Assembly: GCA_022712895.1 (NCBI GenBank)
Contig: JAFLJS010000068.1
Span: forward strand, 1 to 36,601
Length of the DNA stretch: 36,601 nt
DNA from: Desulfocapsa sp.
GTDB taxonomy: Bacteria; Desulfobacterota; Desulfobulbia; Desulfobulbales; Desulfocapsaceae
Direction: 5' to 3'
In this document: positions 922 through 24,677 of the stretch, in pieces
How positions within the stretch are numbered: the stretch's first letter is position 1
Layout: each line of letters begins with the position of its first letter
The notes under the pieces: generated by a model
The model's input: the letters and a program-made list of their open reading frames with translations, nothing else
Told to the model about the DNA's origin: nothing
The model's database searches: none
Position numbers and translations under genes: made by a program

Positions 922-1010
922 GGACGGGTCCAGCTAAATAGAATAAAAAACTACTTTGCTAAGTGAAGGTGTTTTATACACGTGATAAACCCGTATAAAC
1001 CCATATTTTA

Positions 1011-1137
1011 GATGGTTAAGTAAAAAATTTCATATCCGAGGCGCAAATATTTCCTATCATTTCGGCGTACTAAGGTACGTCATAATCATAGGAAATGTAC
1101 AGCAACGAAAGAGATGAAGAGTTTTTACGACGCCATC
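1011..1137. repeat. Structured interspersed repeat, copy 1
   Basis: A 127-base element bounded by GATGG (1011-1015) and CCATC (1133-1137). It contains a left block (CATATCCGAGGCGCAAATAT, 1031-1050), a hairpin whose arms pair from ATTTCCTAT (1049-1057) to ATAGGAAAT (1088-1096), an apical GGCGTAC TAAG GTACGTC hairpin (1064-1081), and a right block (CAGCAACGAA then GAGATG, 1100-1116). Blocks, apex and ends recur at 16878-17025 with a different but still complementary stem. It lies between the methyltransferase and uppP genes, both on the minus strand. Function unknown. Confidence 0.8.
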
Positions 1138-1146
1138 GCACTTAAC

Positions 1147-1956
1147 CTAACCAACAAAAAACGTGTAGAGCAAACCAGAGGAAGCAAGTAACAGACAATA
1201 ATAGCCAAAATACTGCAATTTATTCTTCCGTATTACAGCAAGCAGCAAAATAATCGCAAAATACCCGCTGATAGCTGAAGCCACTGTACCGGCTGCAATC
1301 AACTGTAAACTAGCAGCCCCCGGAGGATTATCCAACAGATCACCGAACTGCAACACTGCGGCACCCAGGATTGCTGGGATCGACATAATAAATGAAAACC
1401 TGGCAACAGTTTCCCGATTTACCCCAAGGAGCATTCCTGTGAAAATCGTTGAACCGGATCTCGAAAGACCGGGAAGAATAGCCATGGCCTGGGCACACCC
1501 AATAAGCAGTGCACGAGGACAATTGAGCTCCACTTTTCGTTCACTAATAAAAGGGGTCGCAACCATAATGAGCCCGGTCACAAAAAGCATACAATAGACA
1601 AGCAGAATATTCGTGAATATCCCTGCGATGGAATCTTTAAAAAAGAGCCCGACCACCACTGCCGGCAGAGTGGCCACAATTACATATATATCCCAATAAA
1701 AAAAACGGGTTAACTCCTTATCTGCCCGTCTTTGTAGCACTGCCAAAGGTGCAATAAGCATGGCGGATAACTCTTGCCGGAACACAATACAAACAGAGAG
1801 CAACGTACCCAGGTGTAAAAAGATATCAAAGGCCAGACCCTGCTCCTGAAAATGGAGGAGTTCAGAGCCAAGCACTAAATGCCCGGAACTTGATATGGGA
1901 AGAAATTCCGTTAATCCCTGGACTAAGCCAAGTACTATTGCTTTGAGTAATTCCAA
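1147..1956 (-). CDS. uppP: Undecaprenyl-diphosphatase UppP (BacA family)
   Basis: This 269-residue polytopic membrane protein dephosphorylates undecaprenyl pyrophosphate, recycling the lipid carrier for peptidoglycan, O-antigen and other surface polymers. The N-terminus carries the family motif GLVQGLTEFLPISSSGHL (about residues 10-27), with the catalytic glutamate and serine-rich loop. The second conserved motif PGLSRSGST is near residues 161-169. Alternating hydrophobic segments run the whole length, with about eight membrane spans, and the length is normal for the family. The gene stands alone on the minus strand between repeat copy 1 and a small secreted protein gene that has its own terminator, so it is probably transcribed separately. 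Confidence 0.95.
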   Translation of the reverse strand: MELLKAIVLGLVQGLTEFLPISSSGHLVLGSELLHFQEQGLAFDIFLHLGTLLSVCIVFRQELSAMLIAPLAVLQRRADKELTRFFYWDIYVIVATLPAVVVGLFFKDSIAGIFTNILLVYCMLFVTGLIMVATPFISERKVELNCPRALLIGCAQAMAILPGLSRSGSTIFTGMLLGVNRETVARFSFIMSIPAILGAAVLQFGDLLDNPPGAASLQLIAAGTVASAISGYFAIILLLAVIRKNKLQYFGYYCLLLASSGLLYTFFVG

Positions 1957-2110
1957 TGAATGGCCGATCCTTTTATGACTGGTCTCTTAAAAAATGTACC
2001 CATCATGAAGAGTGCCAAAGACAATGGCTTCTTTTGCCCTGCCTTCGCCTCTACTATGTATTGCACGCTCAGTATAAGCATTGTAAAATCAGCAAACAAC
2101 TAAACGCAAA

Positions 2111-2146
2111 AAAGGCCAATTGATATCAGATATCAATTGGCCTTCA
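2111..2146 (-). terminator. Intrinsic terminator of the small secreted protein gene
   Basis: Perfect 16-base inverted arms (2112-2127 and 2129-2144) surround a single-base loop. Read on the minus strand, the arm ends in a run of T. It lies about 30 bases after the stop of the gene at 2177-2380, so it terminates that transcript before uppP. Confidence 0.85.
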
Positions 2147-2176
2147 CAAGCTAACTAAAAAACAAAACTATGTCAA

Positions 2177-2380
2177 TTAGCAACCTTCGATCGCAGCAGC
2201 CTTTTTCTTGGCTCCTTTAACTTTAACGGCATCACCTGCTTTAAACTTAGCGCTTTTGCAGGTCATGGTTACTTTGTCGCCGTCTACAGAATCAACGGTG
2301 CATTTTGTGGTTGCGGCAACAGCAACACTGCTTGCTGCGAAAGCGAGGGATAATACTACAGCTACGATAGCTTTTTTCAT
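2177..2380 (-). CDS. Small secreted cysteine-containing protein
   Basis: A 67-residue protein with a clear Sec signal peptide: MKK, a hydrophobic stretch to about residue 20 and an AVA-type cleavage site, giving a mature protein of roughly 45 residues. The mature part has three cysteines (TKCTVDS, MTCKSA and the terminal EGC), several lysines and a pattern of short beta strands (VDGDKVTMTC, GDAVKVKGA). This resembles small periplasmic proteins common in Desulfobacterota and Geobacter-type genomes, whose function I do not know. A good ribosome binding site (GGAGAA) precedes the ATG and a strong terminator follows, which suggests it is well expressed as a single-gene unit. Cysteine plus lysine content would allow metal or redox binding, but that is only a guess. 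Confidence 0.75.
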   Translation of the reverse strand: MKKAIVAVVLSLAFAASSVAVAATTKCTVDSVDGDKVTMTCKSAKFKAGDAVKVKGAKKKAAAIEGC

Positions 2381-2507
2381 TGTTCTTCTCCAAGAATAAA
2401 GTTAATTAATGTTCCAGCAAATACCAGAACGATGCACATCAATTTCAAGTGGCTAATATAGAGTGGAACCTGATACTTGTCAACCCCTATCGGCAGAACA
2501 ATGAATC

Positions 2508-3011
2508 CTAATTCATTATCCGTTTGATATCATTCTCGAGTATCATATGGGGTACATAACCGGGATATTTTTTAACAACAAGCCCCTTACTGTTAATCAA
2601 AAAAGATGTCGGAATTCCAACAACACCACCAAAATCTCTAGCGGTTGCACCGTTGGCCAGCAGCACCGGATAATTGATGGATCGCTTCTCAACCAGCTTC
2701 TTGACAACACTCGCCCCACCCTGATCAACGGATAGAGCCACCACAGAAAAGCCTTTTTCCTCGTATTCGTTCTGCAAACTGATCAGATCAGGTATTTCCT
2801 GCATACATGGTGGACACCATGTAGCAAAAAACGTTACCAGCAGAGTTTTCCCATCAAAAACATTACTGTCCACCGTATCTCCTGTCACCACATCAGGAAG
2901 CGAAAAAGAGGGCATACTTTTACTGGCAAAGGCTCCATGAACAGGCAATAAGATAAATAAAGCAGCTGCCAACAGCAGTACCATGCTTCCGCGGGGAATA
3001 AATTGTTTCAT
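2508..3011 (-). CDS. TlpA/ResA-type periplasmic thioredoxin
   Basis: This 167-residue protein has an N-terminal signal or anchor segment (residues 8-30) and a single thioredoxin-fold domain. The redox motif WCPPC is at residues 65-69 and the cis-proline loop GIPTSF at about 132-137. The AhpC/TSA-like start (PSFSLPDVVTGD) and the insert with ALSVDQGG place it in the TlpA/ResA group. These are thiol-disulfide reductants that act outside the cytoplasmic membrane, for example in cytochrome c maturation. It is a monocistronic minus-strand gene, divergent from the SurA-like gene. Whether it serves c-type cytochrome assembly, expected to matter in a sulfate reducer, cannot be shown from this window. 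Confidence 0.9.
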   Translation of the reverse strand: MKQFIPRGSMVLLLAAALFILLPVHGAFASKSMPSFSLPDVVTGDTVDSNVFDGKTLLVTFFATWCPPCMQEIPDLISLQNEYEEKGFSVVALSVDQGGASVVKKLVEKRSINYPVLLANGATARDFGGVVGIPTSFLINSKGLVVKKYPGYVPHMILENDIKRIMN

Positions 3012-3318
3012 AGGTAAACCTTTTTGTTAAGAGGAATTAAAAAAAACCACGCTACTATCTATATATTCACCGTTAAAACTATTTCATTTGCATGGAATGT
3101 CAACCCGCAAAGCACTTCCAGTCAGGCCAATCTCCCGCTACACGTGACCTTACCTCCTGTTAAGACAAGATAAATTTTCGCACAATGTGTCAAACCATTT
3201 CCCGCAAAAAAAAAATGTGGAAATGCTGTTCAGAAAGTCATTTTATGGTAAAGTGCTCTGAACTCTAAATCACGCTGCCTTACGCTGCTATTTACCACTG
3301 AATCCAGAAGACCTCATC
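3012..3318. other. Divergent intergenic region, TlpA / SurA
   Basis: A 307-base gap between two divergent genes. It is AT-rich and must hold both promoters, but I see no match good enough to place either. There is a run of ten A near 3211-3220 and a spaced TTCAGA / TCTGAA pair near 3233-3262. No RNA gene or repeat copy is recognised. Confidence 0.5.
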
Positions 3319-4332
3319 ATGAATAAACGTTTTGCACATTTCTTAATCCTCCCGGCCATAATACTTCTTATAACCACGCTAAATGCTCAATGCCTTGCTG
3401 CACAGCTGGTTGATCGTGTAGTTGCGATTGTAAATGATGACGTCATCACGATGTCTGAAGTGAATGAGGCAGGGAAAGGCTACTTCAGGAAAATCACCGA
3501 CAACGCACCTCCCAGCCAACTTGAAGACGCCCTGCGCAGAGCCAGGTCAGAAGTACTCAACACTCTGATAGATAAACGATTGATTGCCCTTGAAGCGGCA
3601 AAGCAAGGGGTCACAATATCTGAAGGTGAAGTACAGGCAGCAGCAGAGCGAATGATGGCCAGTAACAATATGACCAGAGAGATGCTTGATGCCCAGCTTG
3701 GACAGATGGGTATGAGCTATGACAGCTACCTGGACACCTTGCGCAACCAGATTCTGCAATCCAAGCTGGTCAATTATGAAATCCGATCACGATTAATCAT
3801 CACCGACGATATGATTCTTGACTACTACGATGCCAACTATACCAAGCATATCAGTAGTGGCGGATATTATCTTATGCAAATGGGTTTTGTCTGGGGTCAA
3901 AAAACGGGGGACACGGACTCATCCCCTGTACAATATGCAGATAAAATGGATGCAAAAAAACGTGCCGAACGAGTACGCAAACTACTGGTCAACGGACAGG
4001 ACTTCAGGATGCTTGCTGAAAAGTTTTCCGACCTTCCTTCTGCAGTTGACGGTGGAGATCTCGGTGTCTTTCAAAAAAACGAAATGGCTGACTATATGAA
4101 GGCTGCGGTACTCCCCCTGAGCCCCGGCGAAGTGAGTGAGATTGTCGAAACTCCTTCCGGTTATCAATTTTTCAAATTACTCTCCAGCCAGGACGGGCAA
4201 ATTGTAGTACAAGCGTCTTTTGCATCTGTAAAAGATGTCATCAGAGAAAAACTCTACGACCAGCAACTCAAAGAACAATTTGACAAATGGGTTTCCAGAA
4301 TTAAAACAGATGCATATATTAAAAGGCTGTAG
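3319..4332 (+). CDS. SurA-like periplasmic peptidyl-prolyl cis-trans isomerase / chaperone
   Basis: A 337-residue exported protein. Residues 1-28 are a signal peptide (hydrophobic core, cleavage near CLAAQ). The SurA N-terminal signature LVDRVVAIVNDDVITMSEV follows directly. A helical chaperone region runs to about residue 180. The C-terminal part contains a parvulin-type domain, seen in FRMLAEKFSDLPSAVDGGDLG and the later LSPGEVSEIVETPSGYQFFKL. Proteins of this type escort outer-membrane beta-barrel precursors across the periplasm. It has one rotamase domain where E. coli SurA has two, which is common outside the Gammaproteobacteria. The stop is nine bases before the RodZ-like gene, implying co-transcription. 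Confidence 0.9.
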   Translation: MNKRFAHFLILPAIILLITTLNAQCLAAQLVDRVVAIVNDDVITMSEVNEAGKGYFRKITDNAPPSQLEDALRRARSEVLNTLIDKRLIALEAAKQGVTISEGEVQAAAERMMASNNMTREMLDAQLGQMGMSYDSYLDTLRNQILQSKLVNYEIRSRLIITDDMILDYYDANYTKHISSGGYYLMQMGFVWGQKTGDTDSSPVQYADKMDAKKRAERVRKLLVNGQDFRMLAEKFSDLPSAVDGGDLGVFQKNEMADYMKAAVLPLSPGEVSEIVETPSGYQFFKLLSSQDGQIVVQASFASVKDVIREKLYDQQLKEQFDKWVSRIKTDAYIKRL

Positions 4333-4341
4333 GTAACGAAA

Positions 4342-5235
4342 ATGTCAGAAAAAGTAGCAGAACAAGAGCCACAAACACTGGGTGAGTTCCTCAAAGCAAG
4401 CCGTGAAACTAGCAATTTATCCCTGGGTGATGCCCACAACTCAACCAAGATACCTCTGAAGATTCTAGAAGCCATGGAACAAAACGACTTCAGCGGCATG
4501 CCAGCCGAAGCGTTCTGTCGTGGTTTTTATGTGATGTATGCAAAATTTCTAAAACTTGATTCTGAGGTAATACTGAGTAGATACCTGGATACCAGAGGCC
4601 TCCCTCCGGTCACAAAAATGCAATCTACTCCACCTGTTCGGAAAAGTGGGCAATTCAGTAACTACGCAGAGCCATCTTCTATTACCCCATTAATGAGCTC
4701 CATCTTCGCACTGTTTATTTTGCTGGCTGTTATGGTTGGCGGATTTTGGTATTTTAACTGGAACCCCTTGGATTACCTCGACAGTAAACTTGACACGATA
4801 CAGACTGAAGGGCAGCAAGAAGAGGCCATGAGCACCTTCGTCACTCAACCAGCAATTCCTGTCACTGAAGCCGAAACTCTGGAGCCGGTTGCTGGGGCAA
4901 TAGTGGCCGATGAGACATCAATTAAAGAGGGCGACGAGATCAGTGAAACAGGAGGTGAAGTGCTTGTTGAGGATATTACAACACCAATACCCTACTACCT
5001 TGAAATTTATTTTCGCAACAACGGAACACTCACAGTAACGCTGGACAAAGGTTTCTTTATCGACAAGGAGTTTCAGAATGGCCAGACATTGCAATGGGAA
5101 GCTCAAGAGTCTATCGTGCTCGACATGCCAGAATTAATTGACGCCACCATCCGCATGAATGGTATAGAAATACCTCTTCCCGTTGTTGAAAATGGCCGCC
5201 GCCTCTTGTCTCTACCAGAGGATCTTCTTAACTAA
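4342..5235 (+). CDS. RodZ-like helix-turn-helix membrane protein
   Basis: A 297-residue protein with the RodZ layout. A cytoplasmic HTH_25 domain (about residues 11-80; LGEFLKASRETSNLSLGDA) is followed by a linker and one transmembrane helix (about 118-138). An acidic, low-complexity stretch comes next, then a C-terminal beta-rich domain of the DUF4115 type (about 215-295; PYYLEIYFRNNGTLTVTLDK). In model bacteria RodZ links MreB filaments to the cell wall machinery and supports rod shape. The gene follows the SurA-like gene by nine bases and precedes recO by 26, forming a plus-strand run. The HTH in this family binds MreB rather than DNA, so a regulator reading would be misleading. Confidence 0.85.
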   Translation: MSEKVAEQEPQTLGEFLKASRETSNLSLGDAHNSTKIPLKILEAMEQNDFSGMPAEAFCRGFYVMYAKFLKLDSEVILSRYLDTRGLPPVTKMQSTPPVRKSGQFSNYAEPSSITPLMSSIFALFILLAVMVGGFWYFNWNPLDYLDSKLDTIQTEGQQEEAMSTFVTQPAIPVTEAETLEPVAGAIVADETSIKEGDEISETGGEVLVEDITTPIPYYLEIYFRNNGTLTVTLDKGFFIDKEFQNGQTLQWEAQESIVLDMPELIDATIRMNGIEIPLPVVENGRRLLSLPEDLLN

Positions 5236-5261
5236 TCCCAGGCTCACTTTCGAGACTTACC

Positions 5262-6038
5262 GTGGCCGTACAAATACCTGAGCAAGGGTCAAAACAGCAG
5301 ATAGAATCTGCCGCCATAGTCCTCGATTACAGAGACCATGGTGAATCAGACAAGATCGTCACATTCTTCTGCCAGGAGTTTGGCCGTTTAACGGGTATTG
5401 CCAAAGGAGCCAAACGCAGTAAAAAACGTTTTGTCAACAAACTGGAAATCTTCAGTTCCCTGCGTATCCAACACACCCTTCCCCAGAATGGTCGCTTGGC
5501 GTTTATTGCAGAAGCTGAACTGCTTGACGGCTTCCTGACCCTCCGAACTGATTTCTCCTGTTATACGGCAGCAAATGTTGTCCGTGAAATTGTTCTGCTC
5601 GCAACCAAAGACCTGGAAGGAGATGAAGATCTCTACCCTTTACTCCAATGGGTATTACACAATTTGAATTGCTGTAAGGACCCAAGCCCTATCTTAATCT
5701 TTTTTCTCATTCGTTTTTTCGCAATCATCGGCTACACCCCCAACCTTACGAGCTGTGCCGACTGCGGGTATCAGCTCGTACAACATGAGATATTCAGCTT
5801 CCACGTGCAGAGTGGTGGCATACTTTGCGATCGGTGTAATAAAGAAAAAAGATCCAGTCGGATACGACTCTCCTGCGGGACGTTACGCTCTTTGGATATG
5901 GCACTCAGACAACCACTGAATCGGCTACAGCGCCTGCAGCTCACAGAACAGAGCAGAAGAGAAGCGCTTTCATTTTTTCATTTATATGCCAAACAACTGT
6001 TCCAACGAGAGATCGTTTCTTGGCAATTTTTAACTTAG
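5262..6038 (+). CDS. recO: DNA repair protein RecO
   Basis: A 258-residue protein that should load RecA onto gaps by displacing SSB, together with RecR. The N-terminal OB fold is recognisable from AAIVLDYRDHGESDKIVTFF and the following RLTGIAKGAKRSKKRF. The helical C-terminal half includes a four-cysteine zinc finger (CADCGYQ then GGILCDRC, about residues 166-193), a frequent RecO feature. The start used is GTG at 5262. It gives about 15 residues before the conserved core and has no clear ribosome binding site, so the true start could lie slightly downstream. It is the last gene of the plus-strand run and converges on the biotin ligase gene. Confidence 0.9.
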   Translation: MAVQIPEQGSKQQIESAAIVLDYRDHGESDKIVTFFCQEFGRLTGIAKGAKRSKKRFVNKLEIFSSLRIQHTLPQNGRLAFIAEAELLDGFLTLRTDFSCYTAANVVREIVLLATKDLEGDEDLYPLLQWVLHNLNCCKDPSPILIFFLIRFFAIIGYTPNLTSCADCGYQLVQHEIFSFHVQSGGILCDRCNKEKRSSRIRLSCGTLRSLDMALRQPLNRLQRLQLTEQSRREALSFFHLYAKQLFQREIVSWQFLT

Positions 6039-6080
6039 ACTTATAAAACACAGAAATCAGTATTCTGAAACCAACTGTTC

Positions 6081-7004
6081 TCAGTAGCGTATTTCACCAC
6101 TATGTTCAATGCTCACACCACCATCATCATGGGCTAGAACTAAGCCGCCATCACGGGTAATACCTGTCACCACCGCTTCATACTGCGGGTTCTGCACCAC
6201 GTCATACCCAAAGCTCACCCTTTGACCAACCGTATCAGACAACTCCAGCCATCGCGTAAGAATCGGATGCTCATCGCTGTATTCACCTCTGCCTCCACGA
6301 TCCAGCCATTGCACTTCTTCATAAAACAGCAGCCCAATATACCAGCGTATTTTCGCAAAAAAAGACAACGCAAAAGAACAGAGGTCAACTTCCTCCCCAA
6401 GAACCTTAGAAAGGGAAGTAGCACTTTCCTGTAATTCTTCTGGAAAGTTATTGTTATTCACATTCAAGCCAAAACCAAGCAGATGATAGTGTTCGTGGTA
6501 CACCGGGCTGACAAAACCTTCCACAAGAAACCCAGCCTGTTTTTTTCTATTTACCAGAACATCATTGACCCAGCGAATGGTGGCATCCGTCACCCCAGTC
6601 TGCTGCAAAGCCTCACAGCAGGCAATGCCCGGAATAAGAGGCAGAATATTTCTAAAAGTGGGAAGAAAAGTATCGGCAAGAAGAAGACATCCCCAAAGTC
6701 CGCCCAAAGGAGCATACCAGGAACGTTGAAACCGGCCTTTACAGGAATCGAGTTTTGAGGCAAGAATCAAACTGCCACTGGCTACAGACTGGCCATTATG
6801 TTCACAACTGGCAATATGGGATCTCGCCTGATCCATTGCCCGACCAAGGGATGGGTAGATACGAATTTCGGAACCGACAAAAGCTCCATAGCGAGCGATA
6901 GCTTCAGCCTTTTGCTGCCCGTGCTCCTGCTCCCGAACAGGGAATTCAACAGAAGTTACATAATCATGAAAAACAGCAGGTGTAAGCTGAGGAAGGTTAT
7001 CCAT
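6081..7004 (-). CDS. birA: Biotin-protein ligase (BirA family, no DNA-binding domain)
   Basis: A 307-residue protein of the biotin/lipoate ligase fold that would attach biotin through biotinyl-AMP to a carrier lysine. The adenylate-binding loop appears as KGRFQRSWYAPLGGLWG, a divergent GRGRxxRxW motif. The KWPND motif is present as RWVNDVLVNRKKQAGFLVEG, with arginine and valine replacing the usual lysine and proline. A C-terminal SH3-like domain covers roughly the last 60 residues. No N-terminal winged helix is present, so it should lack the repressor function of E. coli BirA. It lies 29 bases downstream of the biotin-carrier-like gene, its likely substrate. The substitutions make exact specificity uncertain. 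Confidence 0.8.
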   Translation of the reverse strand: MDNLPQLTPAVFHDYVTSVEFPVREQEHGQQKAEAIARYGAFVGSEIRIYPSLGRAMDQARSHIASCEHNGQSVASGSLILASKLDSCKGRFQRSWYAPLGGLWGCLLLADTFLPTFRNILPLIPGIACCEALQQTGVTDATIRWVNDVLVNRKKQAGFLVEGFVSPVYHEHYHLLGFGLNVNNNNFPEELQESATSLSKVLGEEVDLCSFALSFFAKIRWYIGLLFYEEVQWLDRGGRGEYSDEHPILTRWLELSDTVGQRVSFGYDVVQNPQYEAVVTGITRDGGLVLAHDDGGVSIEHSGEIRY

Positions 7005-7033
7005 TTAGAAAAGAAAATGTTTTCGAAATTCCA

Positions 7034-7690
7034 TCATTTTTTTTTGTCCCAGTCTGCCTTTACCCTGGTAATAATTTTCTGGATTAGAGGCAACTTCTCG
7101 GTAGGACAAACTCCAATAAGAGGAGCCCCCTGCCCCACCGACACACCAGACTGAAAATAAATAGAATGAATCACGCCAGGTTCTCCACTGTAGTACACTG
7201 GAGTATCCCTTTTCATAAGAGACATAATAATAATTTCGTCTCCGGGTTTCACTGAAATTTCACGTGTGCCTTTCTTGTCAATTCTTGACTGTATATCCAG
7301 GGAAAAAAAATATTTGGCACGCTCAGGAGCAGGAAATATAATCAGCACTTCCTGTAAAATACGCTCAATGATCTCTTTTTTCTTCAGCGGGTGACGAATG
7401 GTCAGCAGCTTCTCACCAGCTTCCACAAAACGCCCTTCAAGCCCACTACACACTTCGGAAACAACACCATTGGTGGTAGCGGTAATCTTTTTCGGGTTAC
7501 GTTCCCTGGTTATTTCAAAGAGGGCAGTTCCGAGGATATGTTTCCACTCTCCGCTGACAGCCTCAACTTCACGGCCCTCCTCTACAAGGAACCGTACCGT
7601 ACCGGTATGCTCGGCAACGATATCCACATATTCGAATGGGTCAGAATGATACTTTCCCAGAATTTCGTCAAAATCTATTTCGTCAGACAT
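7034..7690 (-). CDS. Biotin carrier-like protein with two barrel-sandwich domains
   Basis: A 218-residue soluble protein with two biotinyl/lipoyl-like halves. The C-terminal one (about residues 140-195) has the expected spacing: VKPGDEI, then IMSLMKRDT, then GEPGVIHSIYFQSGVSVGQG. K160 sits where the biotinylated lysine lies, in MK-R-D instead of the usual MK-M. The N-terminal half (about 22-100) repeats the pattern without a recognisable acceptor site (TNGVVSEVCSGLEGRFVEAGEKLL). The next gene is a biotin ligase, supporting a carboxylase or transcarboxylase role. The usual acetyl-CoA carboxylase partner AccC is not nearby. Which carboxylase it serves, or whether K160 is really modified, cannot be decided from sequence. 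Confidence 0.7.
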   Translation of the reverse strand: MSDEIDFDEILGKYHSDPFEYVDIVAEHTGTVRFLVEEGREVEAVSGEWKHILGTALFEITRERNPKKITATTNGVVSEVCSGLEGRFVEAGEKLLTIRHPLKKKEIIERILQEVLIIFPAPERAKYFFSLDIQSRIDKKGTREISVKPGDEIIIMSLMKRDTPVYYSGEPGVIHSIYFQSGVSVGQGAPLIGVCPTEKLPLIQKIITRVKADWDKKK

Positions 7691-7731
7691 ATTATATCAA
7701 CTTTGAGGCCCGTGACCTATTTGTTGTGCTA

Positions 7732-8229: not shown

Positions 8230-8413
8230 AAGCCCATCTCCCTTAAATCAAATAACAATATCGGAACTGAACAAAACTGCTGCCAGTTATGTGACTATGC
8301 AACATTAAATACTTTATTTATAGCTGGATAAACGGACCTTGGCAAGCCTATTCTTAGAACAAACACGCCAATTTGCTCTTTCGCATCAACTCAGACAATG
8401 GTATAGAAGATTC

Positions 8414-9163: not shown

Positions 9164-9185
9164 CCCAAGCATCATACCTTTTGCA

Positions 9186-10145: not shown

Positions 10146-10241
10146 ACTGACTGTTCAGCTCTTTCTTGCCTTTGCTAGTCAGTGTGGTAAACTTGCAATG
10201 ATTATATCGTCTGGTGATATCTTAACGAATAGGAGCGTAGG

Positions 10242-10808
10242 ATGGATAAGAATACCTGTACATTATACAGTGGTGGCTTAAAAGGTGCTGAAGCAACTTT
10301 TGGAGAAGCAGCCGAGAAATATGGCCTCAAGGAAATCATTTACACCTTTGAAGGGCATAAGCTAAACCGTAATAAAAATTCTGTAACACTTACAAAATTT
10401 GAGCTGGAGCGTGGAGATATCTCCATGGAACTTGCATCCCGCATGCTCAACCGCACCTATTACGAAACTGAAAAAATCAGAAAAGTTTTGCAGACTATTT
10501 TCCATATGGTCAACAATGGTCATCAGGTGTTTGTTATTGGCTCCATCATGGAGGATAATACTGTGAAGGGTGGTACCGGCTGGGCTGTAGAACTTGCCAA
10601 ACTCTTCAACCGCCCCCTCCATGTTTTTGACCAGCCAAAGAAACAATGGTTTACCTGGCAAGACAGTGAATGGAAAGAGGACACACCTATTATTGAGTAT
10701 GACACTTTTGTTGGTTCAGGCACTCGTTATTTAAACGATGCGGGCCGCGAAGCCATCGAGCAGCTATTTGTCAATTCCTGCGAACAGGCTAAAAAGGCAA
10801 CTCCATGA
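10242..10808 (+). CDS. SLOG/LOG-like Rossmann-fold protein (circularly permuted YpsA type, tentative)
   Basis: A 188-residue protein with a nucleotide-binding look. It starts TLYSGGLKGAEATFGEAAEKYG, similar to the glycine-rich opening of LOG/YpsA-type proteins. A later segment reads VKGGTGWAVELAKLFNRPLHVFD, matching the GGTxxTxxxA...PxxVxD pattern seen in the MoCo-carrier/cpYpsA group. SLOG proteins bind nucleotide-derived ligands; some are phosphoribohydrolases and some act as sensors. The catalytic acidic motif of cytokinin-activating LOG enzymes is not obvious. It has a strong ribosome binding site (AGGAGCG). Its stop overlaps the start of the HIT gene by four bases (ATGA), pointing to coupled translation. 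The family call is by pattern only. Confidence 0.55.
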   Translation: MDKNTCTLYSGGLKGAEATFGEAAEKYGLKEIIYTFEGHKLNRNKNSVTLTKFELERGDISMELASRMLNRTYYETEKIRKVLQTIFHMVNNGHQVFVIGSIMEDNTVKGGTGWAVELAKLFNRPLHVFDQPKKQWFTWQDSEWKEDTPIIEYDTFVGSGTRYLNDAGREAIEQLFVNSCEQAKKATP

Positions 10809-11146
10809 CAGCAGACTGTCTCTTCTGCAAAATCTCCGCCGGTGAAATTCCTGCGGAGAAACTCTATGAAGACGATGAAATGCTGGCTTTTCGGGATATC
10901 GCCCCGCAAGCTCCCGTCCATTTTCTTGTTATCCCTAAAAAGCATATTCAAGACCCGGCTAATGTCGGTGAGGAAGACGAAGCACTTATCGGCAGAATGA
11001 TGCGTATCGGATCGCTCGTTGCCAAAGAAAACGGAATCACCGATTTTCGTCTGATTTACAACAATGGCTTGGAGGCTGGTCAAACTGTTTTCCACATCCA
11101 TATGCACGTACTTGGTGGCCGCTCACTCACCTGGCCTCCCGGATGA
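10805..11146 (+). CDS. HIT-family nucleotide hydrolase (HinT-like)
   Basis: A 113-residue protein with the complete histidine-triad signature FHIHMHVLGGR, the histidines at residues 97, 99 and 101. The N-terminal CLFCKISAGEIPAEKLYED and central PVHFLVIPKKHI are typical of the HinT branch, which cleaves adenosine phosphoramidates and acyl- or sulfo-adenylates. The first Cys-x-x-Cys may be a remnant of the zinc site seen in some members. It overlaps the preceding SLOG-like gene and the following dehydrogenase gene by ATGA at both ends, so all three are probably translated as a chain. Purine phosphoramidase activity is the family default, not demonstrated here. Confidence 0.92.
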   Translation: MTADCLFCKISAGEIPAEKLYEDDEMLAFRDIAPQAPVHFLVIPKKHIQDPANVGEEDEALIGRMMRIGSLVAKENGITDFRLIYNNGLEAGQTVFHIHMHVLGGRSLTWPPG

Positions 11147-12093
11147 CCCCTTCTGTTCTGGTTGTGCATGACAACCCGGATCAATACTTCCAATCCCTTG
11201 CCGATCATTTCCCTGGCTGTACGTTTCATACAGCCAGGTCAGACACTGAACTCCAGCAACAGATAGACTCCTGCAAACCGGAAATTCTCCTCAGCTTTCG
11301 CTGCGACGGAATAACCACAGCAGCACAGATCAAAGCAGCGCAGGCAGACTGTGTCCAGTGGATACAGGTCGCCGGAGCCGGTCATGATCACTTGGGCGAT
11401 CTTTCACGACTTTCCTGCACAATAAGTAACTGCGGAGGAGTCCTAAGCAGGTTTCAGGCAGAAACCGTCATTGGGGCTATGATTAATCTCAACTTCGGTT
11501 TCTTTCGCTACCAGCAACAGCAGAAACGAAAAGAATACAAAAAACTCCCCTGGAGTTCACTGGCTGGACAGAAACTGCTCCTTGTTGGTTTTGGACATAT
11601 TGGCAAAGCAGTTGCCAGAGATGCACACCATTTCGGTATGCATGTGACAGCCGTTCGAACACAGGCCTGTGAAACACCTGAAGCTGACGCCGTTTTCACC
11701 ATCAACAAACTTCCAGAACTTCTCCCCCATGCGGATTTTGTATCCTTGCACCTTCCTCACAACGCAGAAACGCATCAGCTTTTTGATAAAAAAATGTTTT
11801 GTGCCATGAAGGCTGGCAGTTATTTTATTAATACTGCTCGTGGCCAGATTGTACGGGAGGAGGACCTTATTGAAGCGCTGAGAGGGAAACACCTTGGAGG
11901 TGCATATTTAGATGTATTTACCGAAGAGCCGCTGCCAATATCCAGCCCACTATGGGATTTAGAAAATGTGATCCTTACACCACATTACTGCGATGCGGTA
12001 TCGGACTGGAATAAACGTTTTGCAGATTTTTTTGCTGACAATTTACAACACTGGCTTAATGGAATGAGCCTGCAAAACTGTATCAAGGAATAA
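11143..12093 (+). CDS. D-isomer-specific 2-hydroxyacid dehydrogenase
   Basis: A 316-residue NAD(P)-dependent dehydrogenase of the D-2-hydroxyacid type. The Rossmann loop reads LLLVGFGHIGKAVARDA (about residues 144-160). The substrate-binding arginine is in INTARGQIV, the glutamate in DVFTEEPLP, and the catalytic histidine in ILTPHYCDAV. The N-terminal half shows the paired catalytic-domain fold and QVAGAGHDHL. Substrate specificity (glyoxylate/hydroxypyruvate, phosphoglycerate or other) is not readable. The gene overlaps the HIT gene by four bases and ends 17 bases before the convergent ABC-F gene. Its linkage to two nucleotide-type proteins is unexplained. Confidence 0.85.
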   Translation: MTPSVLVVHDNPDQYFQSLADHFPGCTFHTARSDTELQQQIDSCKPEILLSFRCDGITTAAQIKAAQADCVQWIQVAGAGHDHLGDLSRLSCTISNCGGVLSRFQAETVIGAMINLNFGFFRYQQQQKRKEYKKLPWSSLAGQKLLLVGFGHIGKAVARDAHHFGMHVTAVRTQACETPEADAVFTINKLPELLPHADFVSLHLPHNAETHQLFDKKMFCAMKAGSYFINTARGQIVREEDLIEALRGKHLGGAYLDVFTEEPLPISSPLWDLENVILTPHYCDAVSDWNKRFADFFADNLQHWLNGMSLQNCIKE

Positions 12094-12110
12094 GGGGCCA
12101 GCGAGCGCAC

Positions 12111-13961
12111 TCACTTATCACTCATTTTCTTTTCTTCCAACTCATCCCAACGTTCATACAACTGTTCAACCTGTCGTTTAAGCTCTTCCAACTGAGCCCA
12201 GGTTGATTCTAGCTTTTGGGGATCATTGGCGGTTTCAGGATCATCCATCAATGCTTGCAGAGACTCTTTCTCCACCTCAGCCTCCATGATCTTTTCTTCC
12301 ATCTGCTCATATTCACGCTGGTCCATATAGGAGAGCTTACCTGCTTTACTCTGTTTTTTCTTTGAAGCACTCCCCTTTTGAGAAACTCTTTTTTTTGATT
12401 CACCAGAGTCCGTATCATTTCTATTTAGATCAGCAAGCCACTGTTGATAATCAGCATAATACGTCACCCCGCCAAGGTTATCAAAACCAAGCACCTGTTC
12501 ACAGACGGAATCAAGCAGATATCTATCATGGCTGACCAGCACCAGGGCACCGGGAAAATCCTGTAGACTTTCTTCCAAAACATCAAGAGATGGGATATCC
12601 AGATCATTGGTGGGCTCATCAAGCAGAAGAATATCTGCTGGTTGTCGCATAAGCTCGGCTATCAAAATCCGAGCCTGCTCGCCACCTGACAACCGACCGA
12701 CGGGAGTCTCCAGCTGATCGGCACGAAAGAGAAAACGCTGGGCCCAGGTAACAACATGAATGGATTGTTCCCGAAACAAAATGGAATCCCCGTCAGGGGC
12801 CAAAGCACGACGAAGAGTAATTGTGGGATCGAGCCCTTCACGTTTTTGATCAAAACTTATTATACGTATATTGGGAGCAGTTGTTACTACACCACTATCC
12901 GCTTTTTCACCATCTGGTAGAACACTGGCGGCGAGGATCTTCATAAGGGTGGATTTACCGCAGCCATTGCGGCCTAAAAGCCCAAGCCTGCTACCCGGCG
13001 AAAGAACAATATCAAGATCTGAAAACAAATGTTTATCCTCATAATTCTTGGATATAGCTTTTGCTTCCAGCAATTTTTTTGTTTTCCTACCCGTTGAATC
13101 AAAATCAATTCGAACCTGCTTCAGGGCACGGTTTCTCCCTTTAACCTCACTGAGATGAGCCTTTAACTTGTGTGCCTCATCGATTCGATACTGCGCTTTA
13201 GTTGCACGAGCCTTGGGCCCCCGACTGAGCCACTCCGCTTCTCGGCGCATCTTATTGGCCAGACGATCTTCCAGACGTTCCTGATTTTCAAGAAATTCCA
13301 TTCGTTCTTGTAAAAATCTGGAATAATTACCTTCAACCTGAAAAGAACCATCTGGATAAGCCGCTGAAATTTCAACCACCCGGTTAGCAATATTTTCTAA
13401 AAAGCGCCTGTCATGACTAACAATCAAAAAAGCATCTGGACTGCCTGGCAAAACACCTGAAAGGATTTTTTCCAGCCAGATAACACCTTCAATATCAAGA
13501 TGGTTTGTGGGCTCATCCAGCACCAGAATTGTAGGTTGTACGACTAGTGAGCGACAGATAGATAATCGCTTGCGCCACCCACCGGAAAGCAGCTTCACAG
13601 CAACCGTAATATCAGGAAACTCAGCACGTGAGAGAAGGGCTTGTACGCGACTATGACGTTCTGCGGCATCGAGATCGAACGACAGTAGAGGAGCGCCGAG
13701 ATTATCCTCAACACTTGCCTCCTCATCAAATACATCCGCCTGGTCAAGATAGGCAGTCTTCACATTTTTTCGTTTGATTAACTTTCCGCTATCAGGATCA
13801 ATACGCTCACAAACGATCTTCAACAGGGTAGATTTGCCGCTACCATTGGGCCCGATCAACCCAATACGATCCCCCTGATGAATAACAAGATTAATATTTT
13901 CAAATAGACGTTCAGCACCAAAGGCTTTTGACAAAGCCTGACAGGTTAGCAGATTAGACAT
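12111..13961 (-). CDS. uup: ABC-F ATPase of the Uup type
   Basis: A 616-residue soluble protein with two ABC ATPase cassettes and no membrane domain, the ABC-F layout. Walker A motifs are GPNGSGKST and GRNGCGKST. Signatures are LSGGWRKRL and LSGGEQARI. Walker B motifs are LVLDEPTNHLD and LLLDEPTNDLD. A linker rich in basic and acidic residues joins them, and the C-terminal 80 residues are a coiled coil (MDQREYEQMEEKIMEAEVEK), as in Uup. These proteins act on ribosomes or on DNA-related processes; Uup has been linked to precise excision of transposons in E. coli. The frame is open to 14102, but MSNLLTCQALSKAFG at 13961 is the family-like start. It is divergent from the M23 gene. Confidence 0.9.
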   Translation of the reverse strand: MSNLLTCQALSKAFGAERLFENINLVIHQGDRIGLIGPNGSGKSTLLKIVCERIDPDSGKLIKRKNVKTAYLDQADVFDEEASVEDNLGAPLLSFDLDAAERHSRVQALLSRAEFPDITVAVKLLSGGWRKRLSICRSLVVQPTILVLDEPTNHLDIEGVIWLEKILSGVLPGSPDAFLIVSHDRRFLENIANRVVEISAAYPDGSFQVEGNYSRFLQERMEFLENQERLEDRLANKMRREAEWLSRGPKARATKAQYRIDEAHKLKAHLSEVKGRNRALKQVRIDFDSTGRKTKKLLEAKAISKNYEDKHLFSDLDIVLSPGSRLGLLGRNGCGKSTLMKILAASVLPDGEKADSGVVTTAPNIRIISFDQKREGLDPTITLRRALAPDGDSILFREQSIHVVTWAQRFLFRADQLETPVGRLSGGEQARILIAELMRQPADILLLDEPTNDLDIPSLDVLEESLQDFPGALVLVSHDRYLLDSVCEQVLGFDNLGGVTYYADYQQWLADLNRNDTDSGESKKRVSQKGSASKKKQSKAGKLSYMDQREYEQMEEKIMEAEVEKESLQALMDDPETANDPQKLESTWAQLEELKRQVEQLYERWDELEEKKMSDK

Positions 13962-14121
13962 AGTATTTTTTTTTACAGTATATAAGTAGACAAGACGCGC
14001 GTTACCTTTACAGAACGGCGGTTTTTTATTGAAATTATCATCACCAGAGATTACACTCCCTAGCAATTTCAGGAAGACTTTTGAACCCCACAATATATAC
14101 ACCAGATTCTGTCAAATCACA

Positions 14122-15147
14122 ATGAGTGACCACGTACACATTCTCATCACTGGCGACGAAGGCAAAGGACGTAGTTTTCTCCTTTCCAAGCGCAGGATAA
14201 CGAGCACTATCGTGTGTATGATCGGCCTCCTGCTCACCTTTGGTATCACGAGTTTCAGCACATTCCATGGTATTAAAACAAATACTGATTTATCCAACCA
14301 GGTAGCAACATTACACAACGAGATAAACAGCCTGACCGGCAAACTTGGCAAAACTACACGCAGCAATGAAGCACTGGCCATTCAGGTAAGTGATCTGAAA
14401 GTGCAAAACAGCATGCAGGAAGAACTCTTCCAACAAGAAAAAGCAACACTCCTCAATACTGCAGTTACAGAGCTTGAGGAACGCAGCGACATGATCGAAC
14501 GCATCATGAATAGTATTGGAGTGGATGTCAAAGATACTCCTGTCGCTGACAGCAGTAACTCCGGTGGCCCATTTATCATACCGCAGGAAAATATTGGTAA
14601 AGAACTACTCTACCGCTCAGACTCATATCTGCAAACCATTCACTACGTACCTCTGGGACGCCCTGTTCCTGGGAAAGTTTCATCCCGTTACGGACATCGA
14701 ACTGATCCGGTAAATGGAAAAAAAGGATATCATTCGGGAATTGACTTCCGGGGGCGCAGCGGTGATCCGATTCTGGCTACTGCCGATGGAGTTGTAACAA
14801 AATCCTTCTGGAACGGAGGATATGGCAGATACATTGAGATAAATCACGGCAACGGGTTCGTCACCAAATTCGCCCATATGAAAAAGATATTGGTTAAAAA
14901 GGGTGAAAAAATTACACGGGGGCAGAAAATTGGACTAGTTGGTAACAGCGGTCGCTCCACCGGATCACACTTACACTACGAGATCTGTTTCAACGGAAAA
15001 CCCATCAATCCCTCCAAATTTATGCACACCCAAAAGCTCAATCAGGCTGCAACCATCAAAGAGTTGAACGTAGATACAAAAACCAAAATCAAACGCCTTC
15101 TGGTTGTAGAGAACAACCCACAACCCACAAGTGTTTTGGAGAAATAA
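14122..15147 (+). CDS. M23 family peptidase with membrane anchor and coiled coil
   Basis: A 341-residue cell-wall hydrolase or hydrolase regulator. It begins MSDHVHILITGDEGKGRSFL, has a transmembrane segment around residues 34-54, and a coiled coil from about 60 to 135. The C-terminal LytM/M23 domain follows: SRYGHRTDPVNGKKGYHSGIDF with a zinc-ligand histidine at 204 and the aspartate four residues later, then HLHYEI with histidines at 283 and 285. The zinc site looks complete, so it may be an active endopeptidase. The frame opens at 14029, but the chosen start matches relatives that begin with a short cytoplasmic segment. The bactofilin gene starts one base after its stop; this pairing is a known conserved arrangement in cell-shape loci. 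Confidence 0.88.
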   Translation: MSDHVHILITGDEGKGRSFLLSKRRITSTIVCMIGLLLTFGITSFSTFHGIKTNTDLSNQVATLHNEINSLTGKLGKTTRSNEALAIQVSDLKVQNSMQEELFQQEKATLLNTAVTELEERSDMIERIMNSIGVDVKDTPVADSSNSGGPFIIPQENIGKELLYRSDSYLQTIHYVPLGRPVPGKVSSRYGHRTDPVNGKKGYHSGIDFRGRSGDPILATADGVVTKSFWNGGYGRYIEINHGNGFVTKFAHMKKILVKKGEKITRGQKIGLVGNSGRSTGSHLHYEICFNGKPINPSKFMHTQKLNQAATIKELNVDTKTKIKRLLVVENNPQPTSVLEK

Positions 15148-15148
15148 C

Positions 15149-15583
15149 ATGGGAATTTTTAATCAGAAGGATGATTTTGAGCAACAGAGTCAGCTAGCAG
15201 ACAAAGAGGTAATCTCCTCCATCATCGATGCAAATATGGTGATGAAAGGCGAATTGATCTTTGCAGGTAAAGCAAGAATTGATGGTAAGGTTGAAGGAAA
15301 TATCAAAGGCGAACACCTTATCCTCAGCGAAAGTGGCACAATCACAGGTGATATCCAGGTTACAACCTTTGTCTGTCATGGCACCCTCGAAGGAAACATA
15401 AAAGCAAGCCTTGTCACAGCACGCAAAAACTGCAGCATCCACGGCCGAATTGAAAGCAACAGTCTCACCGTCGAACCAGGTGCTGGGCTTGATGGCGAGA
15501 TGAAAGTTGCCTGCAATGATCTGCACCTTGTAAATGGCAAGAACACATCTGAATCTGATTCTGCCACAACTGCCGAAGCCTGA
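15149..15583 (+). CDS. Bactofilin
   Basis: A 144-residue bactofilin, a small beta-helical cytoskeletal protein that polymerises without nucleotide and positions cell-wall enzymes. The central region repeats a glycine-rich six-residue rung pattern: MKGELIFAGKARIDGKVEGN, HLILSESGTITGDI, TFVCHGTLEGNI, ARKNCSIHGRI, LTVEPGAGLDGEM. The start is ATG at 15149, which has a GGAG site eight bases upstream inside the M23 gene. A GTG at 15131 in frame would add six residues without a better site. It follows the M23 gene by one base, supporting joint function at the envelope. Confidence 0.92.
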   Translation: MGIFNQKDDFEQQSQLADKEVISSIIDANMVMKGELIFAGKARIDGKVEGNIKGEHLILSESGTITGDIQVTTFVCHGTLEGNIKASLVTARKNCSIHGRIESNSLTVEPGAGLDGEMKVACNDLHLVNGKNTSESDSATTAEA

Positions 15584-15587
15584 TCAC

Positions 15588-15833
15588 TTGCAACCCAACG
15601 ACCTTCCCAGCCCGGCCAATCGAATCGTCTGTCCCGAATGTGGCAACGATGAAGATTTTGTTGAAGTGGCCGAAAATGTTGTTATCACGACGCTCTACAC
15701 CCAAAATCTTGACGGCAGTTTTACCCTTGAGGAGGATGACTCTCAGGTTCTTGGCGCACTAAAACTCATCTGCGCCCAATGCGAGGCAGACCTCTCGCAA
15801 TTTCATAGCCGCTTTGCGGAGATGCTTTTTTGA
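15588..15833 (+). CDS. Small zinc-ribbon-like protein
   Basis: An 81-residue protein with two Cys-x-x-Cys knuckles, CPECGN near the start and CAQCEA about 50 residues later, with an acidic stretch between (TLEEDDSQ). This looks like a one-zinc ribbon. I do not recognise a named family. The start is uncertain. The frame opens at an ATG inside the bactofilin gene (15534) with no ribosome binding site. TTG at 15588 lies just after the bactofilin stop and gives a protein starting MQPNDLPSPANRIVCPECGN, which seems more natural. Its stop overlaps the start of the ATP-grasp gene, so translation is probably coupled. The function is unknown. Confidence 0.6.
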   Translation: MQPNDLPSPANRIVCPECGNDEDFVEVAENVVITTLYTQNLDGSFTLEEDDSQVLGALKLICAQCEADLSQFHSRFAEMLF

Positions 15834-16600
15834 GTACTACTCCGCGTATTATCCAGACAAACGATGATTTCTTTTCCTGTTACCACGAGCTGCAAGCAGG
15901 GGATATTGTTACCTGCCGTCTGCGCCTGAAATTTGGTGAAGAACATATCCTCTTAGACCTTCTTGAACGCGGCGTTCAACTGATCCCATCCGCCACATGT
16001 CAACTCGCTTCCCGTTCAAAATGTTTTCAAGCTCGCTTACTAACACTCCTCATGATTCCTCATACTGAGGTTATCTACGACATCCACGGGCTCCTGAAAA
16101 CAGTTACCCTTTACGGACAACACAGTATCGACAAAGTAGTACTCAAACATGACCGGAAAAATGCAGGCCTCGGCATACATCTGTTTCGGGATATCGAAGA
16201 TGTATACACGCAGGCTGCTAACAATATCCTCCCCTACCCCTTTGTCTTGCAACCTTTTATAGGAAACAGCCGGGATTTACGGGTGATTATTATTGATGAT
16301 TTCGTTGAGGCCTACGAACGACGGAATCCGCACAACTTCCGAAACAATCTGCACTGTGGAGGCAAGCCTTTACCAGTGGAGCTGAGCAATACCCAGCTAC
16401 AACTCTGTAAAACAGCCATGAAACGTGGGGGATATCCTTACGCTCACCTGGATTTAATGATCACTGAAAAAGATGAGACATATCTTGCTGAAATAAATCT
16501 ACGGGGTGGGATGCGGGGAGCTGTCATTGACTCTAAAGCATACAGATTAAAGATTACAGAGCAGGAAGGAAAACTACTGGCTCAATTAATCAATTCTTAA
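15830..16600 (+). CDS. RimK-like ATP-grasp protein
   Basis: A 256-residue protein resembling the ATP-grasp fold of RimK/GshB-type ligases. Visible elements are KVVLKHDRKNAGLGIHLF (ATP-binding lysine and glycine loop, about residues 103-120), FVLQPFIGNSRDLRVIIIDD, and the metal-binding end LAEINLRGGMRGA. Such enzymes join a carboxylate to an amine using ATP, for example adding amino acids to proteins or small peptides. The substrate is unknown. The start is TTG at 15830, overlapping the preceding stop as TTGA, with GGAG nine bases upstream. It closes the M23-bactofilin-ribbon cluster. A link to envelope or peptide modification would be inferred only from position. Confidence 0.75.
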   Translation: MSTTPRIIQTNDDFFSCYHELQAGDIVTCRLRLKFGEEHILLDLLERGVQLIPSATCQLASRSKCFQARLLTLLMIPHTEVIYDIHGLLKTVTLYGQHSIDKVVLKHDRKNAGLGIHLFRDIEDVYTQAANNILPYPFVLQPFIGNSRDLRVIIIDDFVEAYERRNPHNFRNNLHCGGKPLPVELSNTQLQLCKTAMKRGGYPYAHLDLMITEKDETYLAEINLRGGMRGAVIDSKAYRLKITEQEGKLLAQLINS

Positions 16601-16717
16601 AAGCAACTGCAAAAGACACTGGGCCTACCACTCACAAATGGTGTCAGCCTTTCCTGGTCACCAATCCAAACCCAGCTTCCTATATTCGCTAGCTCTCCCC
16701 CAACCGCAGGATTTTAT

Positions 16718-16777
16718 CAGGGTACCGACAAACGTCCACGCTCGTACCTCGCTGCGGTATTGTTTGTCAGTACCCTG
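16718..16777. repeat. Long hairpin, unrelated to the repeat family
   Basis: Sixteen-base arms CAGGGTACCGACAAAC (16718-16733) and GTTTGTCAGTACCCTG (16762-16777) pair with a single mismatch around a 28-base loop. The loop has its own small ACC/GGT stem. It shares none of the conserved blocks of the repeats at 16878 and 17061. No T run follows either arm, so it is not a standard terminator. Confidence 0.75.
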
Positions 16778-16877
16778 TTAACCCCCTTGCTATCAGCTAA
16801 GCCAAAAAACAATAGTACTGTTTATCTGAATCTGGGCATTAATCAGGTATGCTGAATTCGTAAAAACTCAGAATTTA

Positions 16878-17025
16878 GATGGTTAAGTAAAAAACTTCAT
16901 ATCCGAGGCGCAAATATTTTATATCATTTCGGCGTACTAAGGTACGTCGTAATGATATAAAATGTGCAGCAACGAAGGAGATGGAGAGTTTTCACCCTAA
17001 CTACGGGCATAAATACGACGCCATC
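16878..17025. repeat. Structured interspersed repeat, copy 2
   Basis: A 148-base copy bounded by GATGG and CCATC like copy 1, with nearly identical left block (CATATCCGAGGCGCAAATAT) and right block (CAGCAACGAAGGAGATG). The stem is ATTTTATATCATT pairing with AATGATATAAAAT. Compared with copy 1, two adjacent base pairs are changed on both sides so pairing is kept, and one mismatch in copy 1 is repaired. About 21 extra bases are present near the right end (around 16993-17013). Confidence 0.85.
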
Positions 17026-17060
17026 AAGTATTCATCTTTTCACTAAGTAAAGCAAAGATA

Positions 17061-17183
17061 TATTTGTAAAAAAAACTTCATATTCGAGACGCGTATATTT
17101 AAAACAATTTCGGCGTACTTAAGTACGTTGAAATTGTTTTAAATATACAGCAACGAAGAAGATGAATATTTTTTTTGCAAATA
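17061..17183. repeat. Structured interspersed repeat, copy 3 (diverged)
   Basis: A third copy, head to tail with copy 2 after a 35-base gap. The conserved blocks are recognisable (CTTCATATTCGAGACGCGTAT and ACAGCAACGAAGAAGATG), as is the apical GGCGTAC/GTACGT hairpin. The stem TATTTAAAACAATTTC pairs perfectly with GAAATTGTTTTAAATA and differs from both other copies. Here the outer arms also pair (TATTTG at 17061 with CAAATA at 17178), giving an almost continuous 120-base palindrome. The GATGG/CCATC ends are absent. Confidence 0.8.
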
Positions 17184-24625: not shown

Positions 24626-24677
24626 AATTGTAAACAAACTTCATATGCGAAACACGTATATGAAGTTTGTTACAATT
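24626..24677. terminator. Palindromic hairpin between convergent genes, related to the repeat family
   Basis: A long hairpin with arms of about 20 bases (from AATTGTAAACAAACTTCATA at 24626; the other arm ends at 24677), one bulge and a ten-base loop. It begins four bases after the SNF2 stop and ends 16 before the CobA-HemD stop, so it probably terminates both. Its left arm and loop (ACTTCATATGCGAAACACGTATAT) closely match the left block of repeat copy 3 (ACTTCATATTCGAGACGCGTATAT), suggesting a collapsed copy. Confidence 0.7.

Follow-up and report, generated by a model that had tools for sequence, protein, structure and literature searches.

The 36,601-nt stretch of Desulfocapsa sp. contig JAFLJS010000068.1 analyzed here (the window) contains three copies of a noncoding repeat. 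These repeats are miniature inverted-repeat transposable elements (MITEs), and the best overall explanation, which we consider probable, is that they are non-autonomous MITEs of about 154 bp carrying an ERIC-like core hairpin whose pairing is under selection. The core comprises an outer stem, an asymmetric internal loop (GAGGCG opposite GCAGCAACGAA), a paired stem that is free in sequence, and an apical hairpin with the apex GCGTAC-NNNN-GTACGT, the base of which is often a G.U pair. A first-pass annotation, made from the sequence alone, had described three copies with common blocks and an apical GGCGTAC/GTACGT hairpin, and both its coordinates and the arms that it quoted are present in the sequence.

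The repeats are MITEs with target duplications

A search of the source genome (3.68 Mb in 75 contigs) with copy 1 as the query yielded 46 matches. Forty of these have at least 86% identity; the other six are copy 3, a further, more diverged copy, and four antisense hits that coincide with copies counted before. The 40 copies are a lower bound because the best 40 of 160 candidates were scored and further places emerged in another search. Copies were also observed at contig ends or within 16 bases of them (contigs C7, C8, C19, and C35), so that the repeat probably broke the assembly and further copies exist.

Thirty-seven copies from this genome have both ends; in these, the element starts at GATAAACTCGTAAAA and finishes at TACGACGCCATC, allowing for variants, and it is bounded by terminal inverted repeats (GATRRNNTCGTAAAAA / TTTTTACGACGCCATC). 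It measured 153 to 155 bp in 28 copies, 154 and 155 bp being the commonest lengths, and 174 to 175 bp in the other nine; eight of the longer copies carry a 21-bp insert in the right arm, and the ninth (locus L017, positions 2008 to 2183) carries an insert in the left arm. The right-arm insert recurs there as a near reverse complement, as if arms exchange sequence.

An exact duplication of 6 or 7 bp flanks 21 of the 37 copies. Across all loci, exact 5- to 7-bp duplications were found at 60 of 110 copies (49 of them exactly 6 bp), whereas 200 permutations of the flanks gave 1.9 on average and never more than 6; the 110 copies came from 180 candidate left/right pairs, with the longest kept per right end. 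Of the 49 duplications of 6 bp, 47 start with A and 47 terminate in T. When up to one mismatch was allowed, the end motif GATGGNNTCGTAAAAA occurred at 124 sites in the genome, versus one for the reversed control. A left-end pattern, CTCGTAAAAAGGTCNAA, was discarded as too strict, having matched one of 17 genomes. One copy (L011) sits in a reading frame that continues across the site once the element and one duplication are removed. It is on the inverted ends, the target duplications, the many copies, and this insertion that the assignment to MITEs rests, and these elements have transposed with 6-bp duplications. At least one other MITE family appears to have the same ends (GATGGACTCGTAAAAACCC) and a different interior, as judged by eye at about 1449 to 1550 of locus L006 and at other end-motif sites.

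Pairing is conserved by selection across lineages

Each of the three window copies folds as RNA into one long hairpin, with a stability that none of 200 dinucleotide shuffles per copy matched (z = -6.6, -6.1, and -11.2 for copies 1, 2, and 3). Copies 1 and 2 form one subfamily (87% identity over 146 nt), and copy 3 belongs to a separate, more distant one (62% identity). That the stems differ by matched pairs, as previously noted, was confirmed with refinements for copies 1 and 2, whose stems are distinguished by two compensated pairs and by a third pair that is broken in copy 1 (C opposite C). With so few stem differences between copies 1 and 2, and copy 3 being from a distant subfamily, the covariation evidence from the three copies alone is thin.

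Larger sets of copies carry the case. Among 13 rows from the source genome, six pairs were altered on both sides, a number reached in none of 500 shuffles. In A4, an alignment of 35 of 50 listed rows from Desulfobacterota and kin, changes on both sides were found in 30 of 35 pairs, with 229 two-sided cells versus 69 in shuffles, and 90.7% of cells were paired versus 33 to 54% when the partner was slid. The shuffle significance is overstated because related sequences share ancestry; the slid control preserves relatedness, but a structure read from one row tends to exceed it anyway. Held out of A4 were the rows from Tolumonas (L078), clostridia (L094 and L113), UBP15 (L123), and two planctomycetes that look like chance (L087 and L108), as well as nine Desulfobacterota rows (near-duplicates, the longer L086 and L165, and the decayed L068). 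Seven of these nine, read ungapped, paired at 35, 35, 35, 33, 32, 27, and 24 of the 35 pairs; the last two values belong to L126 and L132, which lose register at the apex and are represented in A4 by rows nearly identical to them. The stems of L065 and L069 have few letters in common with those of the window, yet 33 of 35 counted pairs are formed in the former and 31 of 34 in the latter. Letter conservation is highest in the asymmetric internal loop and the apex, not in the stem.

Pairing is thus conserved by selection across lineages. The earlier claims that pairing is selected while the sequence is free, and that the element is no simple remnant, held up, the former in the 13 source-genome rows, in A4, and in the gammaproteobacterial rows described below, and the latter in the sense of more than a chance remnant.

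Selection in the source genome probably acts on the propagating lineage

Among 41 core matches from the source genome (32 distinct), departures from the consensus were found at 80 of 2,870 paired and 24 of 1,230 unpaired positions, so that the paired positions of resident copies change at least as fast as the unpaired ones. Sixty-four pairs were altered on one side and eight on both, five of the eight still being paired. Since resident copies have no visible protection, selection seems to act on the propagating lineage and not on each copy; pairing would matter for those copies that give rise to new ones. The earlier proposal of a functional folded element is therefore supported as regards selection on pairing, but not as regards a role of the individual copies for their host here, where the resident copies are unprotected. 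Pair 32/71 was T-A in 35 of the 41 matches, C-G in two, half-way T.G in three (L014, L026, and L037), and T.T in one, with the other half-way state, C.A, absent; the presence of T.G indicates that the change was probably a two-step compensation.

The first-pass annotation had proposed counting the copies and placing them relative to genes, which gave the count of at least 40 and no clear positional or orientation preference. Based on crude open reading frame (ORF) calls for 36 of the 37 copies (L015 was left out), 13 lie between genes reading in the direction of the core, seven between genes reading the opposite way, six between divergent genes, and five between convergent genes, with the side undefined for five.

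The core is widespread in Desulfobacterota and occurs beyond

Two covariance models were used, R1 built from the copies of the source genome and R2 from the 35 rows of A4, with no gammaproteobacterial row. R1 matched 43 of 96 genomes of the order, including the source genome. R2 matched 118 of 345 genomes of the phylum, representing 79 of 224 genera, and 12 of 148 genomes of the gammaproteobacterial order around a Tolumonas metagenome-assembled genome (MAG), that seed MAG included.

Carriers among the pattern matches listed were Desulfocapsa, Desulforhopalus, Desulfopila, Desulfurivibrio, Desulfovibrio/Pseudodesulfovibrio, and 'Desulfoarculaceae', together with a UBP15 MAG, the Tolumonas MAG, and two clostridial MAGs; two planctomycete pattern matches look like chance. 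A culturable carrier is Desulfopila aestuarii DSM 18488, which has copies (L144). With R2, the UBP15 genome showed 17 copies, Tolumonas one, and the clostridial genomes one and two, respectively. A single R2 match was obtained in each planctomycete genome (E 0.005 and 1.6e-5), and the second of these lies away from the pattern match. Rare carriers may reflect errors in MAG binning. By eye, the outer ends differ by group, being GATGG...TCGTAAAAA in Desulfobulbales, CTGTTCAAAAA...TTTTTCAACA in the Desulfovibrio type, and others elsewhere. In the two clostridial MAGs and a Pseudodesulfovibrio MAG, a copy adjoins an apparent tRNA gene (L094, L113/L176, and L115); the L176 copy lies within a same-strand row of tRNA matches, and the other tRNA neighbors were judged by eye.

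In some gammaproteobacteria the core sits just past stop codons

Twenty-two gammaproteobacterial rows, from 26 loci after leaving out the 71-base hairpins L197 and L207 and the near-duplicates L202 and L204, were aligned to R2. Changes on both sides were observed in 33 of 35 pairs, and 81% of cells were paired, versus 54% when shuffled and at most 42% when slid, figures that lean towards R2 because the rows were aligned to it. G.U forms the base of the apical hairpin in 20 of these 22 rows and in 22 of the 35 rows of A4.

In eight genomes of 2.3 to 2.6 Mb (L189 to L213), all 20 copies lie just past a stop codon and in one orientation, the stop of the minus-strand gene being 8 to 17 nt from the core, give or take two (crude ORF calls; copies of genomes G145 and G124 were left out of this count). 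The genes upstream, examined as one protein per type, encode GroEL, peroxiredoxin C, GAPDH, QueE, FabG, DnaK, and ribosomal protein S2; the gene beside L213 is outside these seven types. A comparison of the gapA site among six genomes showed two-sided differences in 16 of 35 pairs (30 cells versus 12 when shuffled), which suggests that pairing was kept in place while letters changed, unless the insertions were separate. An assignment of the eight genomes to Pasteurellaceae was ruled out, as uptake-signal 9-mers were not in excess. At L189, a weak leucine leader match overlaps the element (34 bits versus a cut-off of 50), and at L190, a TwoAYGGAY RNA (Rfam RF01731, 45.4 bits, cut-off 43) occupies 1685 to 1810, about 90 bases from the element.

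Relation to ERIC and other repeat families

ERIC elements have long been used for strain typing; to our knowledge, their origin, their mobilizer, and the reason for their hairpin are not settled. The motif order of the core is one that we take to be that of ERIC, and a 44-base sequence, presumably the ERIC center, matches 5,375 of 5,426 Escherichia coli genomes. In the gammaproteobacterial genome G186, R2 gave two matches in a blind survey and four in a fuller search up to E 10. The three with E of 0.01 or less align to the ERIC between pgk and fbaA of E. coli (BLASTN E 1e-21, 2e-7, and 6e-7), and the fourth (E 9.8) does not align to ERIC. L196 aligns to that element over 128 bp at 76% identity, and in the R2 alignment the internal loop of the ERICs L196 and L205 contains an additional G facing an additional C. 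L196 also has a full-length weak match to the Rfam Vibrio RNA AS5 (30 bits, cut-off 96), and AS5 may itself be an ERIC transcript.

The likeness extends to size (an imperfect palindrome of about 127 bp in ERIC, also called IRU, and a 127-bp inner unit here), to a mostly intergenic, MITE-like occurrence, to the order of core motifs, to the apex (GCRTAC-N4-GTAYGT) with its basal G.U, and to detection by a model built without ERIC. In contrast, the repeats described here have ends GATRRNNTCGTAAAAA and a 6-bp duplication, whereas ERIC has TA termini (PMC2229807). They also belong to another phylum, their carrier being Desulfocapsa (the same-genus genome G014 is a Desulfocapsa MAG, G014:C156 and L075 having two matches in common with equal scores) and not Enterobacteriaceae or Vibrionaceae. 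ERIC has been described for enterobacteria and vibrios (PMC2229807, PMC2267715, PMC10969869, PMC4853749, PMC2996986), and a 2024 review places it in Enterobacteriaceae and Vibrionaceae (PMC10969869). A literature search, mostly without subscription journals, found no recognized description of the repeat family among the papers listed, nor of ERIC outside gammaproteobacteria. The central sequence of the ERIC primers, as we take it to be, had no match in the window with up to three mismatches. The repeat family is therefore not ERIC itself, since ends, duplication, and central sequence differ. It appears to represent a Desulfobulbales branch within a superfamily of ERIC-like elements that have the same core and different ends, and common descent with ERIC is likely given the shared core, though sequence and ends differ. 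The earlier statement that no named family fits stands for the sequence, but the core is common to ERIC and the element is a MITE, which had gone unseen.

Other known families are less similar. Bacterial MITEs such as Correia, RUP, and Chunjie of Geobacter uraniireducens are likewise short, with inverted ends, target duplication, and many copies; here the interior structure is also conserved and occurs with different ends. Chunjie, of 235 bp (PMC10969869), was considered by its description. Palindromic multicopy families have been reported from Geobacter (PMC2700814, 2009; PMC2996986, 2010) that resemble the present repeats in containing palindromes, being intergenic, and belonging to the former Deltaproteobacteria, one of them with a central GRCGTAGCGCTGCTACGCC (PMC2700814). 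The repeat family may already be partly listed among them, based on a comparison by description. REP, BIME, and REPIN sequences are palindromic as well, and their presumed action is on transcripts or DNA, but REPs measure 20 to 40 bp (PMC3733652).

A superfamily that crosses phyla with varying ends and a constant core would offer many independent stems for identifying the important pairs and loop letters, and the mobilizing enzyme can be sought in lineages whose target duplications are fresh.

Proposed mechanism and alternative explanations

In the mechanism that we propose, a transposase provided in trans would cut at the inverted ends and duplicate 6 bp of A/T-rich target. Within these transposon ends sits the core common to many Desulfobacterota, some Gammaproteobacteria, and ERIC elements, which would act single-stranded, most likely as a transcript hairpin, with its conserved loop and apex recognized by a widely conserved RNA-binding protein or nuclease. 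Selection in the source genome would work via how successful the source copies are. The core may have become a fixed element in the 3' untranslated region (3'-UTR) of strongly expressed genes in some gammaproteobacteria, where it could plausibly set mRNA stability, by analogy with Yersinia, in which ERIC is reported to cause an orientation-dependent drop in upstream messenger stability via an RNase E site (PMC2229807), the closest tested function noted in the literature. Action as RNA is suggested by the non-Watson-Crick cells of A4 (60 G.U versus 28 A.C, basal apical pair excluded), by the one-sided changes in the source genome (26 G.U versus 15 A.C), and by the fold of the L006 copy (-52.9 kcal/mol on the plus strand versus -38.7 on the minus strand). 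A broader scenario, to which we would give slightly less than an even chance, is that the core hairpin predates its transposons. It would then be a single module whose pairing, loop, and apex are conserved in Desulfobacterota, in Gammaproteobacteria, and in no fewer than one additional group at phylum level (the UBP15 MAG). Various ends (GATGG with 6 bp, CTGTTCAAAAA, ERIC, and ATTTGTAAAAA of copy 3) would have captured it, ERIC being one branch, and in some gammaproteobacteria it would have been fixed in the 3'-UTRs of groEL, dnaK, gapA, and other usually strongly expressed genes.

Several results weigh against the reading of the repeats as non-autonomous MITEs with a selected, ERIC-like core that acts as RNA. 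No autonomous partner, sought as paired ends 0.5 to 4 kb apart with a duplication, was found in about 1 Mb of loci, and a relaxed end-pair search over about 1 Mb returned seven weak pairs whose flanks did not match. The PF01609 transposase domain had no match in the source genome, other transposase families not having been searched. An ISNCY model, picked for the 6- to 7-bp duplication that we take to be its hallmark, found genes in 11 of 36 relatives, none above the model cut-off; around the ISNCY-like genes (14 loci) there was no convincing pair of ends, only matches with two or three mismatches. Orientation bias in the source genome was not clear (13 versus 7, few copies). The messenger strand in the eight small genomes is the minus strand of the core, on which the conserved G.U becomes A.C, and in the gammaproteobacterial set G.U outnumbered A.C only 33 to 23, which together argue against one RNA strand being recognized everywhere. 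In the gapA comparison, two rows among the six are almost the same, and 56 of 500 shuffles reached the observed value for one of the five measures (pair types). Finally, the E. coli pgk-fbaA ERIC itself scored only 8 bits with R2 (E 1.3), and a sequence-only profile did not list ERICs up to E 10; the same profile detected five other gammaproteobacterial copies with E below 4e-4.

These last two results would be expected if the ERIC likeness were convergence and any long hairpin with a GC-rich loop scored with the model, an explanation that we consider unlikely. A mirror control model, made by reversing the A4 rows while retaining their pairs, matched none of the 345 phylum genomes and one of the 148 gammaproteobacterial-order genomes (36.7 bits), versus 118 and 12 for R2. 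That single match is a point for convergence, and because of it a lone 35- to 40-bit match is not proof; an empty answer from the mirror model also shows little, the model having no known match. Against convergence, all three G186 matches at E of 0.01 or less align to ERIC, and motif order, loop letters, and basal G.U agree. A somewhat smaller probability attaches to the repeats being a host regulatory RNA (a 3'-UTR stabilizer or terminator-like element) that is functional at each site and was spread by other means. The copies of the eight gammaproteobacterial genomes, always just past stop codons and in one orientation, fit this, as does the pairing kept at gapA, but the source genome has inverted ends, target duplications, copies in every gene arrangement, one copy within a reading frame, and resident copies without protection.

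That same absence of protection would fit an ordinary MITE whose palindrome is maintained by mutation, with template switching at a stalled fork copying arm onto arm so that both sides change together. Quasi-palindrome correction of this kind is established in bacteria. Such a process should erase the mismatched internal loop, yet its letters are conserved across the phylum and gammaproteobacteria; one-sided changes outnumber two-sided ones among resident copies, and the T.G state of pair 32/71 points to two steps. We regard this as the most improbable of the explanations, and retain that of MITEs with an ERIC-like core hairpin under pairing selection.

Features of the window

Above threshold, an Rfam scan of the window gave only a tRNA, with no family on the repeats, and at 900 to 1250 there was no family up to E 5. 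The elements are longer than first noted, copies 1 and 2 starting 27 bp further left with an outer end like GATAAACTCGTAAAA, and copy 2 is flanked by the duplication AGGTAT / AAGTAT, with one mismatch.

Table 1. Repeat copies, their core hairpins, and a probable remnant in the window
Feature	Position	Strand	Description and evidence
Copy 1, whole element	984..1137	+	Inner unit from 1011; target duplication not recognizable
Copy 1, core hairpin	1028..1119	+	Outer stem, internal loop, covarying stem, apical hairpin; R2 86.5 bits and fold
Copy 2, whole element	16851..17025	+	21-bp insert near right end (16993-17013)
Copy 2, core hairpin	16895..16986	+	R2 101.5 bits and fold
Copy 3, other subfamily	17062..17182	+	Different ends, ATTTGTAAAAAAA ... 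TTTTTTTGCAAAT (ends read by eye)
Copy 3, core hairpin	17076..17167	+	R2 89.6 bits, fold z -11.2; stem longest and most perfect of the three
Probable remnant	24628..24675	+	Left and right outer arms (CTTCATATGCGA kept), core deleted; repeat comparison and by eye

The probable remnant is not a core, given only 13 bits with R2 (E 0.21), and it lies directly after the stop codon of a 1402-aa ORF.

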